DNA of 64,000 nucleotides from Blastococcus sp. DSM 46786. Lineage in GTDB: Bacteria; Actinomycetota; Actinomycetes; Mycobacteriales; Geodermatophilaceae. Position numbers and translations under genes: made by a program. The stretch is from NCBI RefSeq assembly GCF_900109665.1, contig NZ_FOAO01000012.1:83706-147705 (forward strand), written 5' to 3'. The first letter of the stretch is position 1. Every line of letters begins with the position of its first letter. The notes beneath the pieces were generated by a model, which made no database searches, had not been told where the DNA came from, and was given only the letters and a program-made list of their open reading frames with translations. Below are positions 55,546 through 62,631 of this stretch, one piece after another.

Positions 55546-55675
55546 GCCGGCGTCCTGCTCCACCACGAACGGGTGCCCGGCGTGTCGCGGAAAGGTCACA
55601 GGTCGGTGCGCGATGGGGGGCAGATCACACAACTGCGTTAGGTTCCCTCCTCAACGAAACCGCCGAGGAGGTCGA

Positions 55676-57040
55676 GTGACGCACCCGACGGACCGTGTCC
55701 GCCGGCACGGTCGACGAAGCAGTACCGCGAGAGCGGGGGCTCGGATACCGGCCGGTGGACCACCGCACCCAGGTCTCACCGCTGTACGCCTGGTGCTGGT
55801 CGGCCTGTTCGTCGCCGGGCTCACCGCCCTGGTGCCGGGCGCCGCCCACGCCGCCGAGGATGCCGGTGAACGGATCTTCGGCACCCTGCAGACCAGCGTG
55901 AGCGGGCCGATCGAAGGCATCTCCGTCGAGGTCGCCGAGATGTCCGGCGCCGAGGTCGACACGGTGGAGACCGACGAGCAGGGCCGCTGGTCGGTCGACC
56001 TGCCCGGCCCCGGCCAGTACACGGTCACGGTCGACGCGGGCGATCTCCCCGAAGGCGTCACCCTCAACGGCGAGCCGAGCCGGACCGTCACCGTGGACGA
56101 GGGCCGGCAGCAGGGCGTCATCATCGGGCTCAACGACGGGAGCCGGAACTCCGGCGGCGGTTCCATCCGCTGGGTGGAGCTGCTGGTCTCGGGGCTCCGA
56201 TTCGGCCTGCTGATCGCCATGGCCGCCATCGGCCTCTCGCTGATCTTCGGCACCACCGGCCTGGTCAACTTCGCCCACGGAGAACTGGTGACCATCGGGG
56301 CGATCGCCGCATGGTTCATCAACGTGGGGGCCGGCGTACCGCTGATCCCCGCGGCCATCCTCGCGATGGTCGTCGGCGCGGGCATCGGTGCGCTCAACGA
56401 GGTCGCCCTGTGGCGACCGCTGCGCCGGCGGGGCACCGGCCTGGTGGCCGCGCTCGTCATCTCGATCGGCCTGTCCCTCCTGCTCCGCTACCTGTACCAG
56501 GTCTTCTACGGCGGGCGGTCCAACGCCTTCGCCGACTACCGCGGCCAGCGCAGTGTCGACTACGGCGCGTTCTCGATGACCAACAAGGACCTCACGTCGA
56601 TGGTCGTGGCGCTGGTGGTCCTCGTCCTCGTCGCCCTGATGCTGCAGCGGACCACGATGGGCAAGGCCATGCGGGCCGTCTCCGACAACCGCGACCTCGC
56701 CGCCTCCTCGGGCATCGACGTCAACCGGGTGATCCTGGTCGTCTGGATGGTCGGTGGCGCACTCGCCGCGCTGGGCGGCGTCCTCCTGGGCCTCTCGGAC
56801 GAGGTCCAGTGGGACATGGGCTTCCGGCTGCTGCTGCTCATGTTCGCCGGCGTCACGCTCGGCGGTCTCGGTACCGCCTACGGCGCCCTCATCGGCAGCA
56901 TCGTCGTCGGCGTCTTCGTCCAGATGTCGACGCTGGTGATCCCCAACGACATGAAGTACGTCGGTGGGCTCCTCCTCCTCATCGTCATCCTCATCGTGCG
57001 GCCGCAGGGCATCCTCGGCAGCCGGGCCCGGATTGGTTGA
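55676..57040 (+). CDS. livH: Branched-chain amino acid-type ABC permease LivH with an N-terminal beta-sandwich domain
   Basis: The 454-residue protein starts at a GTG preceded by GAGGAGG. Residues 1-60 are a signal-like segment (AVRLVLVGLFVAGLTALVPG, then AAHAAED). Residues 66-152 look like a carboxypeptidase-regulatory/CnaB-type beta domain (ISVEVAEMSGAEVDTVETDE, then GRWSVDLPGPGQYTVTVDAG). From about 165 it is a standard LivH permease: ELLVSGLRFGLLIAMAAIGL, SLIFGTTGLVNFAHGE, MRAVSDNRDLAASSGIDVNR. The extra domain should lie outside the membrane where the binding protein docks. It is first gene of livHMGF. TAGGTT at about 55639-55644 is a possible -10. Confidence 0.9.
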   Translation: MTHPTDRVRRHGRRSSTARAGARIPAGGPPHPGLTAVRLVLVGLFVAGLTALVPGAAHAAEDAGERIFGTLQTSVSGPIEGISVEVAEMSGAEVDTVETDEQGRWSVDLPGPGQYTVTVDAGDLPEGVTLNGEPSRTVTVDEGRQQGVIIGLNDGSRNSGGGSIRWVELLVSGLRFGLLIAMAAIGLSLIFGTTGLVNFAHGELVTIGAIAAWFINVGAGVPLIPAAILAMVVGAGIGALNEVALWRPLRRRGTGLVAALVISIGLSLLLRYLYQVFYGGRSNAFADYRGQRSVDYGAFSMTNKDLTSMVVALVVLVLVALMLQRTTMGKAMRAVSDNRDLAASSGIDVNRVILVVWMVGGALAALGGVLLGLSDEVQWDMGFRLLLLMFAGVTLGGLGTAYGALIGSIVVGVFVQMSTLVIPNDMKYVGGLLLLIVILIVRPQGILGSRARIG

Positions 57041-57043
57041 GCC

Positions 57044-58042
57044 ATGGCTGAACTCATCGACGCACTCGCCGTCGCACTCAAGGCCGGGCTCGGCTTCCAG
57101 GCCGCCTTCTTCGCCCTGCTGGCGATCGGGCTCAACATCCAGTTCGGGTACACGGGGCTGCTGAACTTCGGGCAGATCGCCTTCGCCATGCTGGGCGGGT
57201 ACGGCATCGCGATCTCCGTCTCCCAGTGGGGGCTGCCCTTCTGGGTCGGCGTGGTCATCGGCATCGCCGCCGCCGTCGTCCTCGCGCTGCTGCTGGGCAT
57301 CCCGACGCTGCGGTTGCGCGCCGACTACCTCGCGATCGCCACCATCGCCGCCGCCGAGGGGCTCCGGCTCACGTTCCGGTCGGTCTCGGCGACGCCGATC
57401 ACCGCAGGTACCCGGGGTCTGTCCGGCTTCAGCGATCCCTTCGTCGAGCTCGCACCGTGGGACACCGCCCAGCGCTACAGCATCCTGGGCACCCGCTGGA
57501 GCGGAGCGGACCTCTGGGTGACGTTTGTCGGCTGGGTGCTAGTCGCGCTGGCCTGCCTGCTGGTGTGGCTGCTGGTCCGCAGCCCCTGGGGCCGGGTCGT
57601 GAAGTCCATCCGCGAGGACGAGGACGCCGTCCGGGCGCTCGGCAAGAACGTCTACGTCTACAAGATGCAGGCGCTCGTGCTGGGCGGCGTCCTGGGTGCA
57701 CTGGGCGGCATGGTCTACGCGCTCGGCACCGCCTCGGCCACTCCGGACCAGTACCAGAACGCCAACACGTTCCTGGCCTACGCGGCGCTGATCCTGGGTG
57801 GAGCGGCCCGCGTCCTCGGGCCCGTGATCGGCGCCATGATCCTGTACTTCATCATCCAGTTCGCCGACACCGGGCTGCGTACGCTGATCAGCAACGGGAT
57901 CATCCCGGAGAACGTGCTGTCGGCCACCGACGTGGCCCAGATCCGGTTCGTCCTGATCGGTCTCGGCCTGATCCTGCTGCTGATCTTCCGGCCGCAGGGC
58001 ATCTTCGGCGACCGACGAGAGGTGATGCTCGATGCCCGCTGA
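57044..58042 (+). CDS. livM: Branched-chain amino acid-type ABC permease LivM
   Basis: The 332-residue second permease subunit starts 3 nt after livH. Landmarks are FFALLAIGLNIQFGYTGLLN, FGQIAFAMLGGYGIAI, GIPTLRLRADYLAIATIAAA, RVVKSIREDEDAVRALGKNV and ALILGGAARVLGPVIGAMIL. About eight membrane segments are visible. It is of normal length, with no extension, unlike its partners. It overlaps livG by 11 nt. Confidence 0.94.
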   Translation: MAELIDALAVALKAGLGFQAAFFALLAIGLNIQFGYTGLLNFGQIAFAMLGGYGIAISVSQWGLPFWVGVVIGIAAAVVLALLLGIPTLRLRADYLAIATIAAAEGLRLTFRSVSATPITAGTRGLSGFSDPFVELAPWDTAQRYSILGTRWSGADLWVTFVGWVLVALACLLVWLLVRSPWGRVVKSIREDEDAVRALGKNVYVYKMQALVLGGVLGALGGMVYALGTASATPDQYQNANTFLAYAALILGGAARVLGPVIGAMILYFIIQFADTGLRTLISNGIIPENVLSATDVAQIRFVLIGLGLILLLIFRPQGIFGDRREVMLDAR

Positions 58043-59045
58043 GCCGACGCCCACCGGGGCGCACGCCCTGTCCACGACCGGCGGTGCCGGCAGCGCCCCG
58101 CAACGGCTGGCCCAGGCCGCGCTGCGGGATCTGCCCTGGGAGGTCGGGATCGCCAAGCCCGACCCCGCGATCGTGGTCGACGGCGTGGTCCGGACCTTCG
58201 GCGGCCTCACGGCCGTCTCGGTCGACCACCTGGAGATCCAGCGCGGCGGCATCACCGGGCTGATCGGGCCGAACGGAGCCGGCAAGACCACGCTGTTCAA
58301 CCTGCTCACCGGGTTCGACCAGCCAGACGGCGGTACCTGGTCGTTCGACGGCCGGCCGCTCGGGAAGCTCGCCCCGCACCAGGTGGCGCGGCTCGGCGTG
58401 GTCCGCACCTTCCAGCTCACCAAGGCGCTGTCCCGGCTCACCGTGCTGCAGAACATGCTGCTGGGCGCGCAGGGGCAGAAGGGTGAGAGCTTCCTCCGCG
58501 CTCTCGTCCCCGGTACGTGGCGGGCACAGGAGAAGGCCAACACGGAGAAGGCCATGGAGCTGCTCCGCCGCTTCAAGCTCGACGCCAAGAAGGACGACTT
58601 CGCCGGCACCCTCTCCGGGGGCCAGCGCAAGCTGCTCGAGATGGCCCGCGCGCTGATGAGCGACCCCCAGGTCGTCATGCTCGACGAGCCGATGGCCGGG
58701 GTGAACCCGGCGCTGACGCAGAGCCTGCTCGGACACGTCAAGGACCTGCGCGAGCAGGGCATGACGGTGGTCTTCGTCGAGCACGACATGGACGTCGTCC
58801 GTGACATCAGCGACTGGGTGGTCGTGATGGCCGCGGGCAAGGTCATCGCCGAAGGCCCGCCGGAGTCCATCAGCCAGAACCAAGCGGTGGTCGACGCCTA
58901 CCTCGGTGCACACCACGACGCCGCACTCACCATCGAGGAGGAGGACCGCGTCCTCGCCGAGGCGGAGGAGAGCATCTCCCGCGAGGAGCACCCCGACGAC
59001 CTCCGGCGCCCCGGACGCCCCGACGAGAAGGGCACGGACCGATGA
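58032..59045 (+). CDS. livG: ABC transporter ATP-binding protein LivG with extra tails
   Basis: The 337-residue ATPase is about 80 residues longer than usual LivG. Residues 1-45 and the last 45 or so are extra, charged and low-complexity (EEEDRVLAEAEESISREEHP). The core is complete: Walker A GLIGPNGAGKTTLFNLLTG at about 77, signature TLSGGQRKLLEMARALM, Walker B VVMLDEPMAGVNP and FVEHDMDVVRDISDWVVVM. It overlaps livM by 11 nt and livF by 4 nt, so all four importer genes are coupled. Confidence 0.93.
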   Translation: MPAEPTPTGAHALSTTGGAGSAPQRLAQAALRDLPWEVGIAKPDPAIVVDGVVRTFGGLTAVSVDHLEIQRGGITGLIGPNGAGKTTLFNLLTGFDQPDGGTWSFDGRPLGKLAPHQVARLGVVRTFQLTKALSRLTVLQNMLLGAQGQKGESFLRALVPGTWRAQEKANTEKAMELLRRFKLDAKKDDFAGTLSGGQRKLLEMARALMSDPQVVMLDEPMAGVNPALTQSLLGHVKDLREQGMTVVFVEHDMDVVRDISDWVVVMAAGKVIAEGPPESISQNQAVVDAYLGAHHDAALTIEEEDRVLAEAEESISREEHPDDLRRPGRPDEKGTDR

Positions 59046-59956
59046 GCATCGACCCCGGCCAGGGCAAGGACCCGCGCGAGAGCACCGACCCGGAGTACGA
59101 GTTCGACCGGCCGGTCGACCAGGGGGACGCATCAGCGGCCGCCGACCGGGGACCGACCCGGGCCGAGTCCTCCGGCGACCTCTCGCCCGCCGAGCAGGCG
59201 GCCACGCGCGGGGAGCACGTCCGCCTCGCCGCGGACGCGCTCATCCGGGCCGACGAACTCGTCGCCGGCTACCTGCCGGGGGTGAACATCCTCAACGAGT
59301 GCGACTTCTACCTGAACGACGGCGAGCTGGTGGGGATCATCGGTCCGAACGGTGCCGGCAAGTCCACGTTGCTGAAGGCGCTGTTCGGCCTCATCCCGGT
59401 GCGGTCCGGGTCGGTGACGCTGCGCGGCGAGGACATCACGTCGGCGCCGGCACACCGGCTGGTCTCCCTGGGCGTGGGCTACGTCCCGCAGAACAACAAC
59501 GTGTTCCCCTCCCTCACCATCGAGGAGAACATGGAGATGGGTGCCTACCTGCGCCCGAAGGTGGTCAAGGAGCGGTTCGACTACGTCGCCGAGCTGTTCC
59601 CCATGCTCGGGGAGCGCCGCAAGATCAAGGCCGGCTCGCTGTCCGGCGGTGAGCGGCAGATGGTGGCGATGGGCCGGGCGCTGATGATGGAGCCGTCGGT
59701 GCTGCTGCTCGACGAGCCGTCTGCCGGCCTGTCCCCCGCCTACCAGGACGAGGTGTTCATCCGCTGCCGTCGGATCAACGCCACCGGGGTCTCGATCATC
59801 ATGGTGGAGCAGAACGCCCGGCGCTGCCTGCAGATCTGCGACCGCGGCTACGTGCTCGACCAGGGCCGCAACGCCTACACCGCGACCGGCGAGTCGCTGA
59901 TGCACGACCCCAAGGTCATCGAGCTGTACCTCGGCACGCTGGCCAAGGCGCACTGA
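59042..59956 (+). CDS. livF: ABC transporter ATP-binding protein LivF with N-terminal extension
   Basis: The 304-residue ATPase has an acidic N-terminal extension of about 65 residues (DPGQGKDPRESTDPEYEFDR) before the normal start at ALIRADELVAGYLPGVNILN. Walker A is GIIGPNGAGKSTLLKALFG, the signature SLSGGERQMVAMGRALM, and Walker B LLLDEPSAGLSPAYQ. It completes the importer. The extension has no recognised motif and, with the tails on LivG, suggests extra regulation or assembly contacts. Confidence 0.93.
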   Translation: MSIDPGQGKDPRESTDPEYEFDRPVDQGDASAAADRGPTRAESSGDLSPAEQAATRGEHVRLAADALIRADELVAGYLPGVNILNECDFYLNDGELVGIIGPNGAGKSTLLKALFGLIPVRSGSVTLRGEDITSAPAHRLVSLGVGYVPQNNNVFPSLTIEENMEMGAYLRPKVVKERFDYVAELFPMLGERRKIKAGSLSGGERQMVAMGRALMMEPSVLLLDEPSAGLSPAYQDEVFIRCRRINATGVSIIMVEQNARRCLQICDRGYVLDQGRNAYTATGESLMHDPKVIELYLGTLAKAH

Positions 59957-60019: not shown

Positions 60020-60355
60020 AGCCGTCTACCGGCCCGCAGGACCCGCACAGGGCACCTGAGGCCCCTACCCGGTCGTCCACGATTCCGGACGCCGTCCAGC
60101 CCACGACGGGCCGGTGCAGATCCGGAGGCGGACCGGCAGCCGCGTCGGACGCCGCCGGTGAGCTCGTCTTGGACGGGGTCGCTCGCACCTGCCGTCGGCC
60201 ACGGACGCGCCGTCGCACACTCCTGGCTGCCCACCGGCGATGGCCCGCGGCCCACGGTGGGGCCACATACCGCGGTCGCTCGGCGTGCAGCACGGCCACC
60301 GCAGGGGCGTGCCCCGGTCTGCACCGTCGGGTCGTGCCCGCCGGGTCCCGGACGG
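60020..60355. other. Spacer without recognisable gene
   Basis: Between the two convergent terminators there are 336 nt. Short frames exist in several directions, but none shows domain-like sequence, a ribosome site or a good start. I see no tRNA, repeat or promoter pattern I can support. Confidence 0.6.
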
Positions 60356-60395
60356 CACAGTGGCCCGGCACCCCGTGGGGTGTCGGGCCACTGTG
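60356..60395 (-). terminator. Terminator of livK
   Basis: CACAGTGGCCCGGCACCCC at 60356-60374 pairs with the reverse arm at 60377-60395, with one G-T wobble. It lies 54 nt after the livK stop on the minus strand. Confidence 0.88.
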
Positions 60396-60449
60396 ACCGG
60401 CGGTCAGCCGTGCCGCGTCACCGTGACGACGCGGCGCGGCCGGGTGACC

Positions 60450-61799
60450 TCAGCTGCGCGCGGGACCGATGCCCTCGGCGTTGAGCGCCTCGATGATCCG
60501 CGCCGACTCCTCGAAGCCGATGACCACGATGGCGTCGGGGTTGAACTCCACCATCTGCTGGACCTCGGCGTCGAAGTTCGCCGCCTGCGGGTCGTAGGTC
60601 AGCGTCTCGATGCTGTCCGCGGAGAGCCCGGCCGCCTCCAGGTTCGCGACGGTGTTCTCCATGAGACCGGTGCCGTACGGGTCGTTCAGCGCCATGATCC
60701 CGACGGTGTTGTTGCCGTCGTTGATGATCAGGTCCGACAGCGCCCGGGCCTGCAGGGTGTCCGGCGGAGCCGTCCGGAAGTACAGCCCGTTGTCGTTGTA
60801 GGTCGTGAACTGGTCCGACGTGTTGGCCGGCGAGAACTGGACCACACCGGCGCGGGTGATGGCGTCGATGACGGTCAGGCTCACCCCGGACGACGCGGCA
60901 CCGACGATGACGTCGACGTTCTGCTGCAGCAGCCGGTCCACCGTCTGCGAGGCGGTGTCGGTCGAGGCGTCGCCCGAGTCACCCTCGACCAGCTGCACCT
61001 CCTGGCCGAGCACGCCGCCGGCCTCGTTGATCTCCTGGACGGCCAGGCGCGCACCGGCGACCTCGGGCGGGCCGAGGAAGGCCAGGTTGCCGGTCAGCGG
61101 CAGCAGCGTGCCGATCACCAGCGGGTCCGTGGAGGTCGTGCCGGGCGCGGCCGGCGCCGGGCCCTCGTCGGTGGCTGCGTTGCCCTCGTCACCGGAGATC
61201 TCGAAGGTGGTCTGGCCCTCGTCGAGCGCGTTGTCCGCACCGAACTCCAGGATGCCGAAGCTCGCCTGAGCCGGCTCACCCGGCTCGGTGAAGCTCAGCG
61301 GCCCGGAGACGCCGTCGTAGTCGGGATTCCCCCCGCCGCTGATGATCTCCGAGCAGGAGCTGAAGCTGTCGCACGCCTCGCCCCCGAAGGTGACGCCGTT
61401 GATGTACGGGGCGAACTCCGTGGGCACCGTGCTACCCGCCAGCTGCGAGGCCAGCGCGCTGATGATGATCGCGTCGTAGGTCTCGGCCGAGTAGTTGAAG
61501 TCCTGCAGATTCGGGTCGACCGCCAGCAGCCTCTCCTGGAACTCCGTGCCCAGGTCGGTGAGCGGGGTGGTCCCCCTCATGCCGGCAAGGGCGCCCTCCG
61601 TCGTGAACGACTCACCGAGGGCGTTGCCCATGTTGCCGTCGGTGCCGTAGACGTTGACCTGCTTCTCGCCGCCGCCATCGCCGCCGCCGCCGCCACCTTC
61701 GGCCGACGTGCCGCCCTCGTCGCCGCCACCGCAGGCGGTCAGCGCCAGCAGGGCAGCACCGGTGACGGCGATGCTGCGGGCAGTAGTGCCAGTGCGCAT
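60450..61799 (-). CDS. livK: Branched-chain amino acid-type substrate-binding lipoprotein, circularly permuted
   Basis: The 449-residue type I periplasmic binding protein has a lipoprotein signal ending LLALTAC (Cys23) and a Gly-rich linker. Residues 48-195 are the usual C-terminal part of the family (VYGTDGNMGNALGESF, SAETYDAIIISALASQLAGS, YDGVSGPLSFTEPGEPAQAS). An Ala/Pro/Asp linker (about 205-225) follows. Residues 226-447 are the usual N-terminal part (PLVIGTLLPLTGNLAFLGPP, ARLAVQEINEAGGVLGQEVQ). The order is therefore swapped relative to LivJ/LivK. ATG 61799 has GGGAG 7 nt upstream. It is convergent with livHMGF and is the presumed substrate receptor. Its substrate is unknown. Confidence 0.93.
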   Translation of the reverse strand: MRTGTTARSIAVTGAALLALTACGGGDEGGTSAEGGGGGGDGGGEKQVNVYGTDGNMGNALGESFTTEGALAGMRGTTPLTDLGTEFQERLLAVDPNLQDFNYSAETYDAIIISALASQLAGSTVPTEFAPYINGVTFGGEACDSFSSCSEIISGGGNPDYDGVSGPLSFTEPGEPAQASFGILEFGADNALDEGQTTFEISGDEGNAATDEGPAPAAPGTTSTDPLVIGTLLPLTGNLAFLGPPEVAGARLAVQEINEAGGVLGQEVQLVEGDSGDASTDTASQTVDRLLQQNVDVIVGAASSGVSLTVIDAITRAGVVQFSPANTSDQFTTYNDNGLYFRTAPPDTLQARALSDLIINDGNNTVGIMALNDPYGTGLMENTVANLEAAGLSADSIETLTYDPQAANFDAEVQQMVEFNPDAIVVIGFEESARIIEALNAEGIGPARS

Positions 61800-61882
61800 C
61801 AAGCAACTCCCAGTGTCATCAGTGCGCCCGGACGCCGGCGCGTACGCGACGACGATCGACCGGGCGCCGATCGGTGCGCAGA

Positions 61883-61895
61883 ACCTAGCCTCCGT
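61883..61895 (-). promoter_or_regulatory. Possible livK promoter (-10)
   Basis: TAGGTT on the minus strand, near 61886-61891, lies about 90 nt before livK, in a 235-nt spacer to pdtaR. The same TAGGTT occurs upstream of livH. No clear -35 is seen. The rest of the spacer shows no gene. Confidence 0.35.
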
Positions 61896-62034
61896 CCGGG
61901 GGGTTGCACCCTGCTGCGGAACGACCGTGATGAGGTCGTGACCTGCGTCTCCTCACCGTGCGACCGGCAGCACGGTGCGTTGAGGGCGGATGACGCTGCC
62001 GCGCGGCACGCGCGATCGGGGCACGACCCGGGGG

Positions 62035-62631
62035 TCAGGCGGAGCCTTCGCCGGCCGTCGTCGCCGCCAGGATGGACTCCGCCAGGGCCTTCATGCTGGT
62101 CCGCTGGTTCATCGCGGTGCGCTGGATCCAGCGGAAGGCCTCGGCCTCGGTCATGCCCTGATCGGCCATCAGCCGGCCCTTCGCCCGCTCGACGACCTTG
62201 CGGGTCTCCAGCCGCTCCCCGAGGTCCTTGACCTCCCCGTCCAGCGCCGTCATCTCGGCGAAACGACCGCGCGCCACCTCGATGGCCGGCACGAGGTCGT
62301 TCTTGGAGAACGGCTTGACCAGGTAGGCCATCGCGCCCGCGTCGCGGGCGCGCTCGACCAGCTCGCGCTGGCTGAAGGCGGTGAGCACGATGACCGGCGC
62401 GATCCGTGCCGAGGCGATCCGCTCCGCGGCGGAGAGACCGTCGAGCACCGGCATCTGGATGTCCAGGATGACCAGGTCGGGACGCAGCTCCTCCGCACGC
62501 TCCACGGCCTGCTGGCCGTCGCCGACCTCGGCGACGACGCGGTACCCCTCCTCCTCGAGCATCTCCTTGAGGTCGAGACGGATCAGCGCCTCGTCCTCGG
62601 CGATCAGGACCCGGATCGGCTCGCTGCTCAC
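62035..62631 (-). CDS. pdtaR: ANTAR-domain response regulator (PdtaR-like)
   Basis: The 198-residue regulator begins with a REC domain (IRVLIAEDEALIRLDLKEML; phospho-acceptor Asp in DLVILDIQMPVLDG; the switch T in VIVLTAFSQ; Lys in AYLVKPFSKNDL). A C-terminal ANTAR RNA-binding domain follows (RLETRKVVERAKGRLMADQG, then MTEAEAFRWIQRTAMNQR). It should bind nascent RNA hairpins and prevent termination when phosphorylated. The GTG has TAGGCT 8 nt upstream, consistent with a leaderless mRNA. No kinase gene is in the window. Confidence 0.95.
   Translation of the reverse strand: MSSEPIRVLIAEDEALIRLDLKEMLEEEGYRVVAEVGDGQQAVERAEELRPDLVILDIQMPVLDGLSAAERIASARIAPVIVLTAFSQRELVERARDAGAMAYLVKPFSKNDLVPAIEVARGRFAEMTALDGEVKDLGERLETRKVVERAKGRLMADQGMTEAEAFRWIQRTAMNQRTSMKALAESILAATTAGEGSA

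Follow-up and report, generated by a model that had tools for sequence, protein, structure and literature searches.

In this study, we show that a 449-aa lipoprotein of the soil bacterium Blastococcus sp. DSM 46786 is a naturally occurring circular permutant of a LivK/HAAT binding protein of the ordinary kind, and that the permuted arrangement is conserved and under purifying selection. The gene lies in a stretch of 64,000 nucleotides (contig NZ_FOAO01000012.1), here called the window, to which all coordinates refer. Judged from its relatives, the rearrangement is real and old. We consider it highly probable that a circularly permuted LivK-type lipoprotein (HAAT, type I fold) here serves the convergent LivHMGF ABC importer; permutation by duplication, in at least three events, is its likely origin.

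The livK frame (60450..61799, minus strand), assigned to a LivK/HAAT-type solute-binding lipoprotein by sequence, rotation test, Pfam and AlphaFold2, runs unbroken over 449 codons from the ATG at 61799 to the stop at 60452-60450. All its parts lie on the same strand. Residues 1-23 (61731..61799) read as a signal peptide with the lipobox LTAC, ending in Cys23, which is invariant in an alignment of 26 permuted proteins. A Gly-rich linker follows (residues 24-46, 61662..61730), apparent in the sequence and in the AlphaFold2 model. The segment that closes an ordinary LivK chain here comes first, at residues about 47-203 (61191..61661), as delimited by sequence comparison and the model; its landmarks are, in order, VNVYGTDGNMGNAL, ETYDAIIISALA and DGVSGPLSF. 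The same two sources delimit an Ala/Pro-rich linker (about 204-226, 61122..61190) that leads from the old C-terminus to the old N-terminus. Last comes the segment that opens an ordinary LivK chain (residues 227-449, 60453..61121), which matches Peripla_BP_6 profile positions 2-216; the segment proper spans 227-447, and the protein ends EALNAEGIGPARS. The first-pass annotation had claimed this swapped order, with residue ranges that are correct to within about ten residues. Antisense to livK, a 663-aa open frame occupies 60240-62231 of the plus strand; high GC is its most likely cause.

Concerning the order of the segments, the native protein matches Peripla_BP_6 (PF13458) over residues 227-445 only, corresponding to profile positions 2-216 of 343, at 124 bits (curated cut-off, 31.7 bits), and the full profile is not found collinearly in one chain. 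On rotation of the sequence this match reaches profile 2-304 (132 bits), and ANF_receptor, matched over 6-201 in native order, is matched over 6-350 of 353. The rotated form outscores the native one against 103 of 103 ORFs of ordinary order (median 345 vs 242 bits), and with each of the eight best it forms a single alignment of 371-379 residues, 58-62% identical. In the PDB, the top match (4gnr) likewise extends from chain residues 8-220 to 10-297, spanning the new joint. The swapped order is thus borne out by rotation, by Pfam and by the extended PDB match, and collinearity with ordinary LivK is rejected. Four other Peripla_BP_6 proteins of the same genome cover the profile from position 1 or 2 to 330-342, whereas the permuted LivK stops at 217; two more matches are partial and below the cut-off.

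AlphaFold2, run on the alignment of 26 permuted sequences, predicts a single confident fold (pLDDT 87.2, pTM 0.84). An ordinary Rhodococcus relative taken as control gave similar values (84.6 and 0.83). In the permuted model residues 1-43 fall below pLDDT 50, and the second linker is well predicted. Permuted and ordinary models contain 15 and 15 secondary-structure elements in the N-block and 11 and 12 in the C-block, in rotated order. In the permuted LivK the ordinary elements are predicted to form a single compact domain. Foldseek placed leucine-binding proteins and their kin in the top four positions; these aligned with the ordinary control over 378-392 columns (TM-score by target length 0.83-0.84) and with the permuted model over 200-222 columns (0.50-0.55), a short span that is expected when a sequential aligner meets a permutation.

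The permuted order recurs in relatives, where a search for it had been proposed. In an order-wide sample of 397 genomes, 181 gave a match with an E value of at most 1e-20. By a hand count over the listed rows, a full-length collinear match, which denotes permuted order, was present in 67 of the 75 Geodermatophilaceae genomes (f1), in 67 Micromonosporaceae genomes (f16) and in one f13 genome. A phylum-wide sample of 396 genomes yielded 70 with a match, eight of them collinear including the window's own. Where the order is ordinary, the match falls into two pieces in exchanged positions, for instance in f10 and f4. ORFs holding both halves were sorted by segment order in two sets that share some genes: 59 permuted and 41 ordinary in the first (n=100; six one-half ORFs, L043-L046, L103 and L104, left unclassified), 27 permuted and 62 ordinary in the second (n=89; two left unclassified, the second ORF of L176 and L190).

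In the proposed mechanism, the signal peptide would direct export, Cys23 would be lipidated and the Gly-rich linker would act as a tether. The protein would then close on its ligand, a branched-chain or other amino acid, and deliver it to LivHM. With lobe limits that we take to be those of E. coli LivJ, the cut would fall where the backbone returns to lobe 1 from lobe 2, immediately ahead of the VYGTDGN strand; such a position, after the lobe-2 segment, would imply three crossovers. The Ala/Pro linker between old C- and old N-terminus would stand in for the lost crossover, so that three connections stay and the cleft is still built by both segments.

Permutation by duplication, a standard model (PMC3320104), is the likely route. 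It would start from tandem livK copies. Copy 1 would then lose its N-terminal segment behind its signal peptide, and read-through into copy 2, itself truncated at the crossover, would complete the permuted gene. A lipoprotein must keep its leader, and for this reason it would be the N segment behind leader 1 that is lost and the end of copy 2 that is trimmed. Raw material for these steps exists: ordinary livK genes stand in tandem, two or three together, at seven loci (L127, L147, L148, L149, L154, L156, L168), in Nonomuraea and others. A fused intermediate or duplicated segment was found in none of the 189 two-half ORFs at the ORF level, and the duplication route is to that extent inferred. 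This null result speaks for a different origin, the fusion of segments from two different livK paralogues or a cut-and-paste event in place of duplicates of one gene, as do the N- and C-segment trees, which place the f16 and cut-B groups differently. We regard such an origin as the less likely one. For both segments, the same f8 (Nocardiaceae-type) proteins of ordinary order are about as close as any other ordinary protein; the identities are 67% and 57% to L071 (f8), and 67% and 54% to L086 (f30). The tandem arrays also argue against it, as does a weak resemblance of the second linker to an ordinary leader. In comparisons of 37 distinct second linkers with ordinary leaders, between 0 and 86 of 100 shuffles reached the observed score (middle 9), as against 1 to 94 (middle about 65) for 40 distinct first linkers used as control. 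The linkers are related and not independent, and the likeness is therefore only a hint that the second linker may be a relic of an ordinary leader.

How often the permutation arose was addressed with trees and AU tests, for which groups were named after the first tree seen. Group A comprises Geodermatophilaceae, f13 and Micromonosporaceae and has its cut immediately ahead of the YGTDGN strand. Group B comprises Acidimicrobiaceae and other Actinobacteria MAGs (f30, f43, f84), retains the YGTDGN strand C-terminally and starts about 20 residues after cut A. Single strains of Marmoricola, Nonomuraea and Streptomyces make up a third group, which shares the cut of A but sits among ordinary Nocardioidaceae sequences in the tree. 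Rows were dropped before tree building: 16 of 100 for the first tree, 40 of 100 for the segment trees and the smaller AU set (close Geodermatophilaceae, other near copies and long-branch ordinary rows) and 109 of 189 for the larger tree, with 11 further rows from six loci removed for the larger AU sets. Trees of both segments need three changes when built from the 100-ORF set and four when built from the 189-ORF set; the starred branches force two or three, and at least three in the trees of the 189-ORF set.

The AU tests, which by their nature do not separate gain from replacement by transfer, rejected all permuted proteins as one group (p 0.0013 in the smaller set, 5e-62 in the larger), A and B as one group (p 0.0002, larger set), the third group with A (p 7e-5) and the third group with B (p 1e-45). 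They did not reject A alone as a group (p 0.29 in the smaller set, 0.28 in the larger) or B as one group (p 0.187, smaller set). B may be two groups, since the f30 pair stands away from its other members, though this position lacks strong support. Together, the full-length trees (AU p <0.0003) indicate at least three lineages of permuted LivKs with two cut sites, and the permutation probably arose several separate times. A single ancient permutation, with the interleaved ordinary relatives as horizontal-transfer replacements or reversions, appears unlikely. In its favour, the best C-segment tree unites every permuted row, with a support of only 19/0, in 16% of bootstrap trees and in a set that holds no third-group rows, and the branch of the Micromonosporaceae is long and uncertain in position. 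Both the AU rejections, obtained with rows of both segments, and the distance of about 20 residues between the two cuts stand against it.

In the window, permuted livK stands tail to tail with livHMGF on the plus strand. The livH permease (BPD_transp_2; 55613..57040), identified by Pfam and operon order, is followed by genes for a livM-type permease (57044..58042), a livG-type ATPase (58032..59045) and a livF-type ATPase (59042..59956), the last being the convergent neighbour of livK. These three were placed by conserved operon order and are presumably livM, livG and livF. Pfam locates a CarboxypepD_reg-like domain at 55874-56110, N-terminal to the LivH permease core; akin LivH extensions occur at permuted loci (L050, L063, L064, L124) and at ordinary loci (L034, L035, L092, L094). 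Just upstream of livK, on the minus strand, lies a gene for a response regulator with an ANTAR domain (62035..62631; Pfam and neighbour survey).

Within 1.5 kb, a convergent livF accompanies livK in 78 of 103 entries of ordinary order and in 51 of 86 of permuted order, counts in which some loci end before livF would be reached. Among Geodermatophilaceae entries, 40 of 46 have the convergent livF and 34 of 46 the ANTAR response regulator beside livK. Ordinary livK genes have the convergent livF in Nocardiaceae (5/7), Gordoniaceae (3/3) and f8 (8/8), and the ANTAR regulator upstream in the same families (6/7, 3/3 and 8/8, respectively). With both neighbours in common, the permuted gene occupies the place of the ordinary orthologue. 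The window's LivH was present at 69-100% identity in four genomes with the permuted gene. It was not found in any of 10 searched family genomes without that gene, in which matches reached 30-36% only; these comprised the eight gene-less family genomes of the order sample together with G009 and G010, the search being confined to them by setting aside family MAGs that are incomplete and in which the gene has no match, a weak one or fragments only (G027, G039, G044, G046, G050, G052).

These associations suggest that the permuted LivK acts as a working uptake component, and the gene is very likely working. That the protein is instead a sensor or sink seems improbable. A response regulator adjoins livK in the window, and orphan, fast-evolving copies in the Micromonosporaceae fit such a role, but the 40 Geodermatophilaceae entries tail to tail with livF and the common absence of the gene and its LivH point to transport. 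Association with a LivHMGF importer is found for the window's LivK and not for the Micromonosporaceae copies: livF adjoins none of their 24 entries (L038-L040, L052-L062, L069, L070, L132, L134-L136, L139, L140, L142 and L146 are loci of this type), and the window's LivH found only 29-35% matches in four Micromonosporaceae genomes. Lying on a long branch and lacking an adjoining livF, the Micromonosporaceae copy need not be part of a transporter, and it possibly has another role.

The first-pass annotation had spoken of a working permuted gene. That the gene is real, conserved and under purifying selection holds; its working is the inferred part, favoured by sequence conservation, co-absence with LivH and the confident model. 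In all six comparisons dN was lower than dS in both segments, with dN/dS of 0.34-0.66 in the C segment and 0.14-0.43 in the N segment, ratios in which dS is probably compressed by GC bias. The linkers gave 0.22-1.53 and 0.14-1.01 in the six comparisons, and constraint on them is not clear. Rearrangement in pseudogenes can yield swapped orders of this kind, which counts for a decaying or chimeric gene without function. We regard decay as very improbable and reject a pseudogene, since the frame is open, dN is below dS in both segments, the gene is kept across a family and co-absent with its LivH, and a confident fold is predicted. That faulty assembly or binning put together pieces of an ordinary livK in a false order, which had been argued against from the start, is hardly credible: the genome is a draft of 47 contigs, but many other assemblies, among them the single-contig G007 and G021, are collinear with it in identical order and joints, and the other matches in the genome itself are just 26-29% identical, so that a close ordinary copy as source is rejected as well.

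The nearest ordinary counterparts, LivK of Rhodococcus and its kin (L071-L073, L165, L167), share about 62% identity over 372 residues after rotation. Like the permuted protein they have a lipobox, a convergent livFGMH locus and an upstream ANTAR regulator. They differ in that their first segment is the last of the permuted form and that the linker from old C- to old N-terminus is missing. LivJ/LivK structures 4gnr, 3td9, 3ipc and 4n0q, which by sequence or fold belong to the best PDB matches, have ordinary order as well, and about 200-224 of their columns align to the permuted model.

Among the matches listed from the open-access literature, a permuted LivK was not found, and one natural permuted type I binding protein was. 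This is TpMglB-2 (Tp0684) of Treponema pallidum, a crystallised lipoprotein that is naturally permuted like the window's LivK and for which PMC4990184 proposes a 'Type Ic' class and reports glucose binding with a change of shape. According to the same paper, it belongs to the MglB sugar family, has permuted N-lobe strands and a fourth crossover, and its permuted part is 13% identical to EcMglB. The window's LivK differs in belonging to HAAT/LivK, in the clear homology of its permuted part and in its spread over at least three lineages. Its cut also lies elsewhere, presumably at the second crossover if the LivJ lobe limits assumed above apply. Permutation within type I lobes is further described for the Thermotoga ribose-binding protein, where the permuted single lobes are engineered and not natural (PMC9815098). 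What is apparently new is a permuted HAAT/LivK that is recurrent and has unpermuted orthologues at the same locus; a permuted type I binding lipoprotein as such was already known.

Natural permutations with clear homology, common synteny and unpermuted orthologues at one locus are of value, all the more when they recur. In the present case a tree can locate the events, the joints lend themselves to comparison, and the effect can be tested on a textbook binding-protein fold that is used in biosensors. We tentatively propose that permutation of LivK has been both recurrent and selected in Actinomycetota, at least three lineages having independently moved the lipid-anchored N-terminus away from the beginning of lobe 1 to the hinge crossover, at two sites some 20 residues apart, and that the reason is that anchoring at the hinge alters opening, closing or docking on LivHM. 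Doubtful as this joint proposal is, it would, if true, amount to a natural replicate experiment on the placement of chain termini. The authors of the TpMglB-2 study likewise raised tethering as a possible reason for permutation (PMC4990184). A sequential profile detects only half of a permuted protein, and more such proteins may hence hide among partial matches. One protein of an Acidimicrobiales MAG (L112:3734-5191) has a linker unlike that of its relatives, perhaps from compensating indels.
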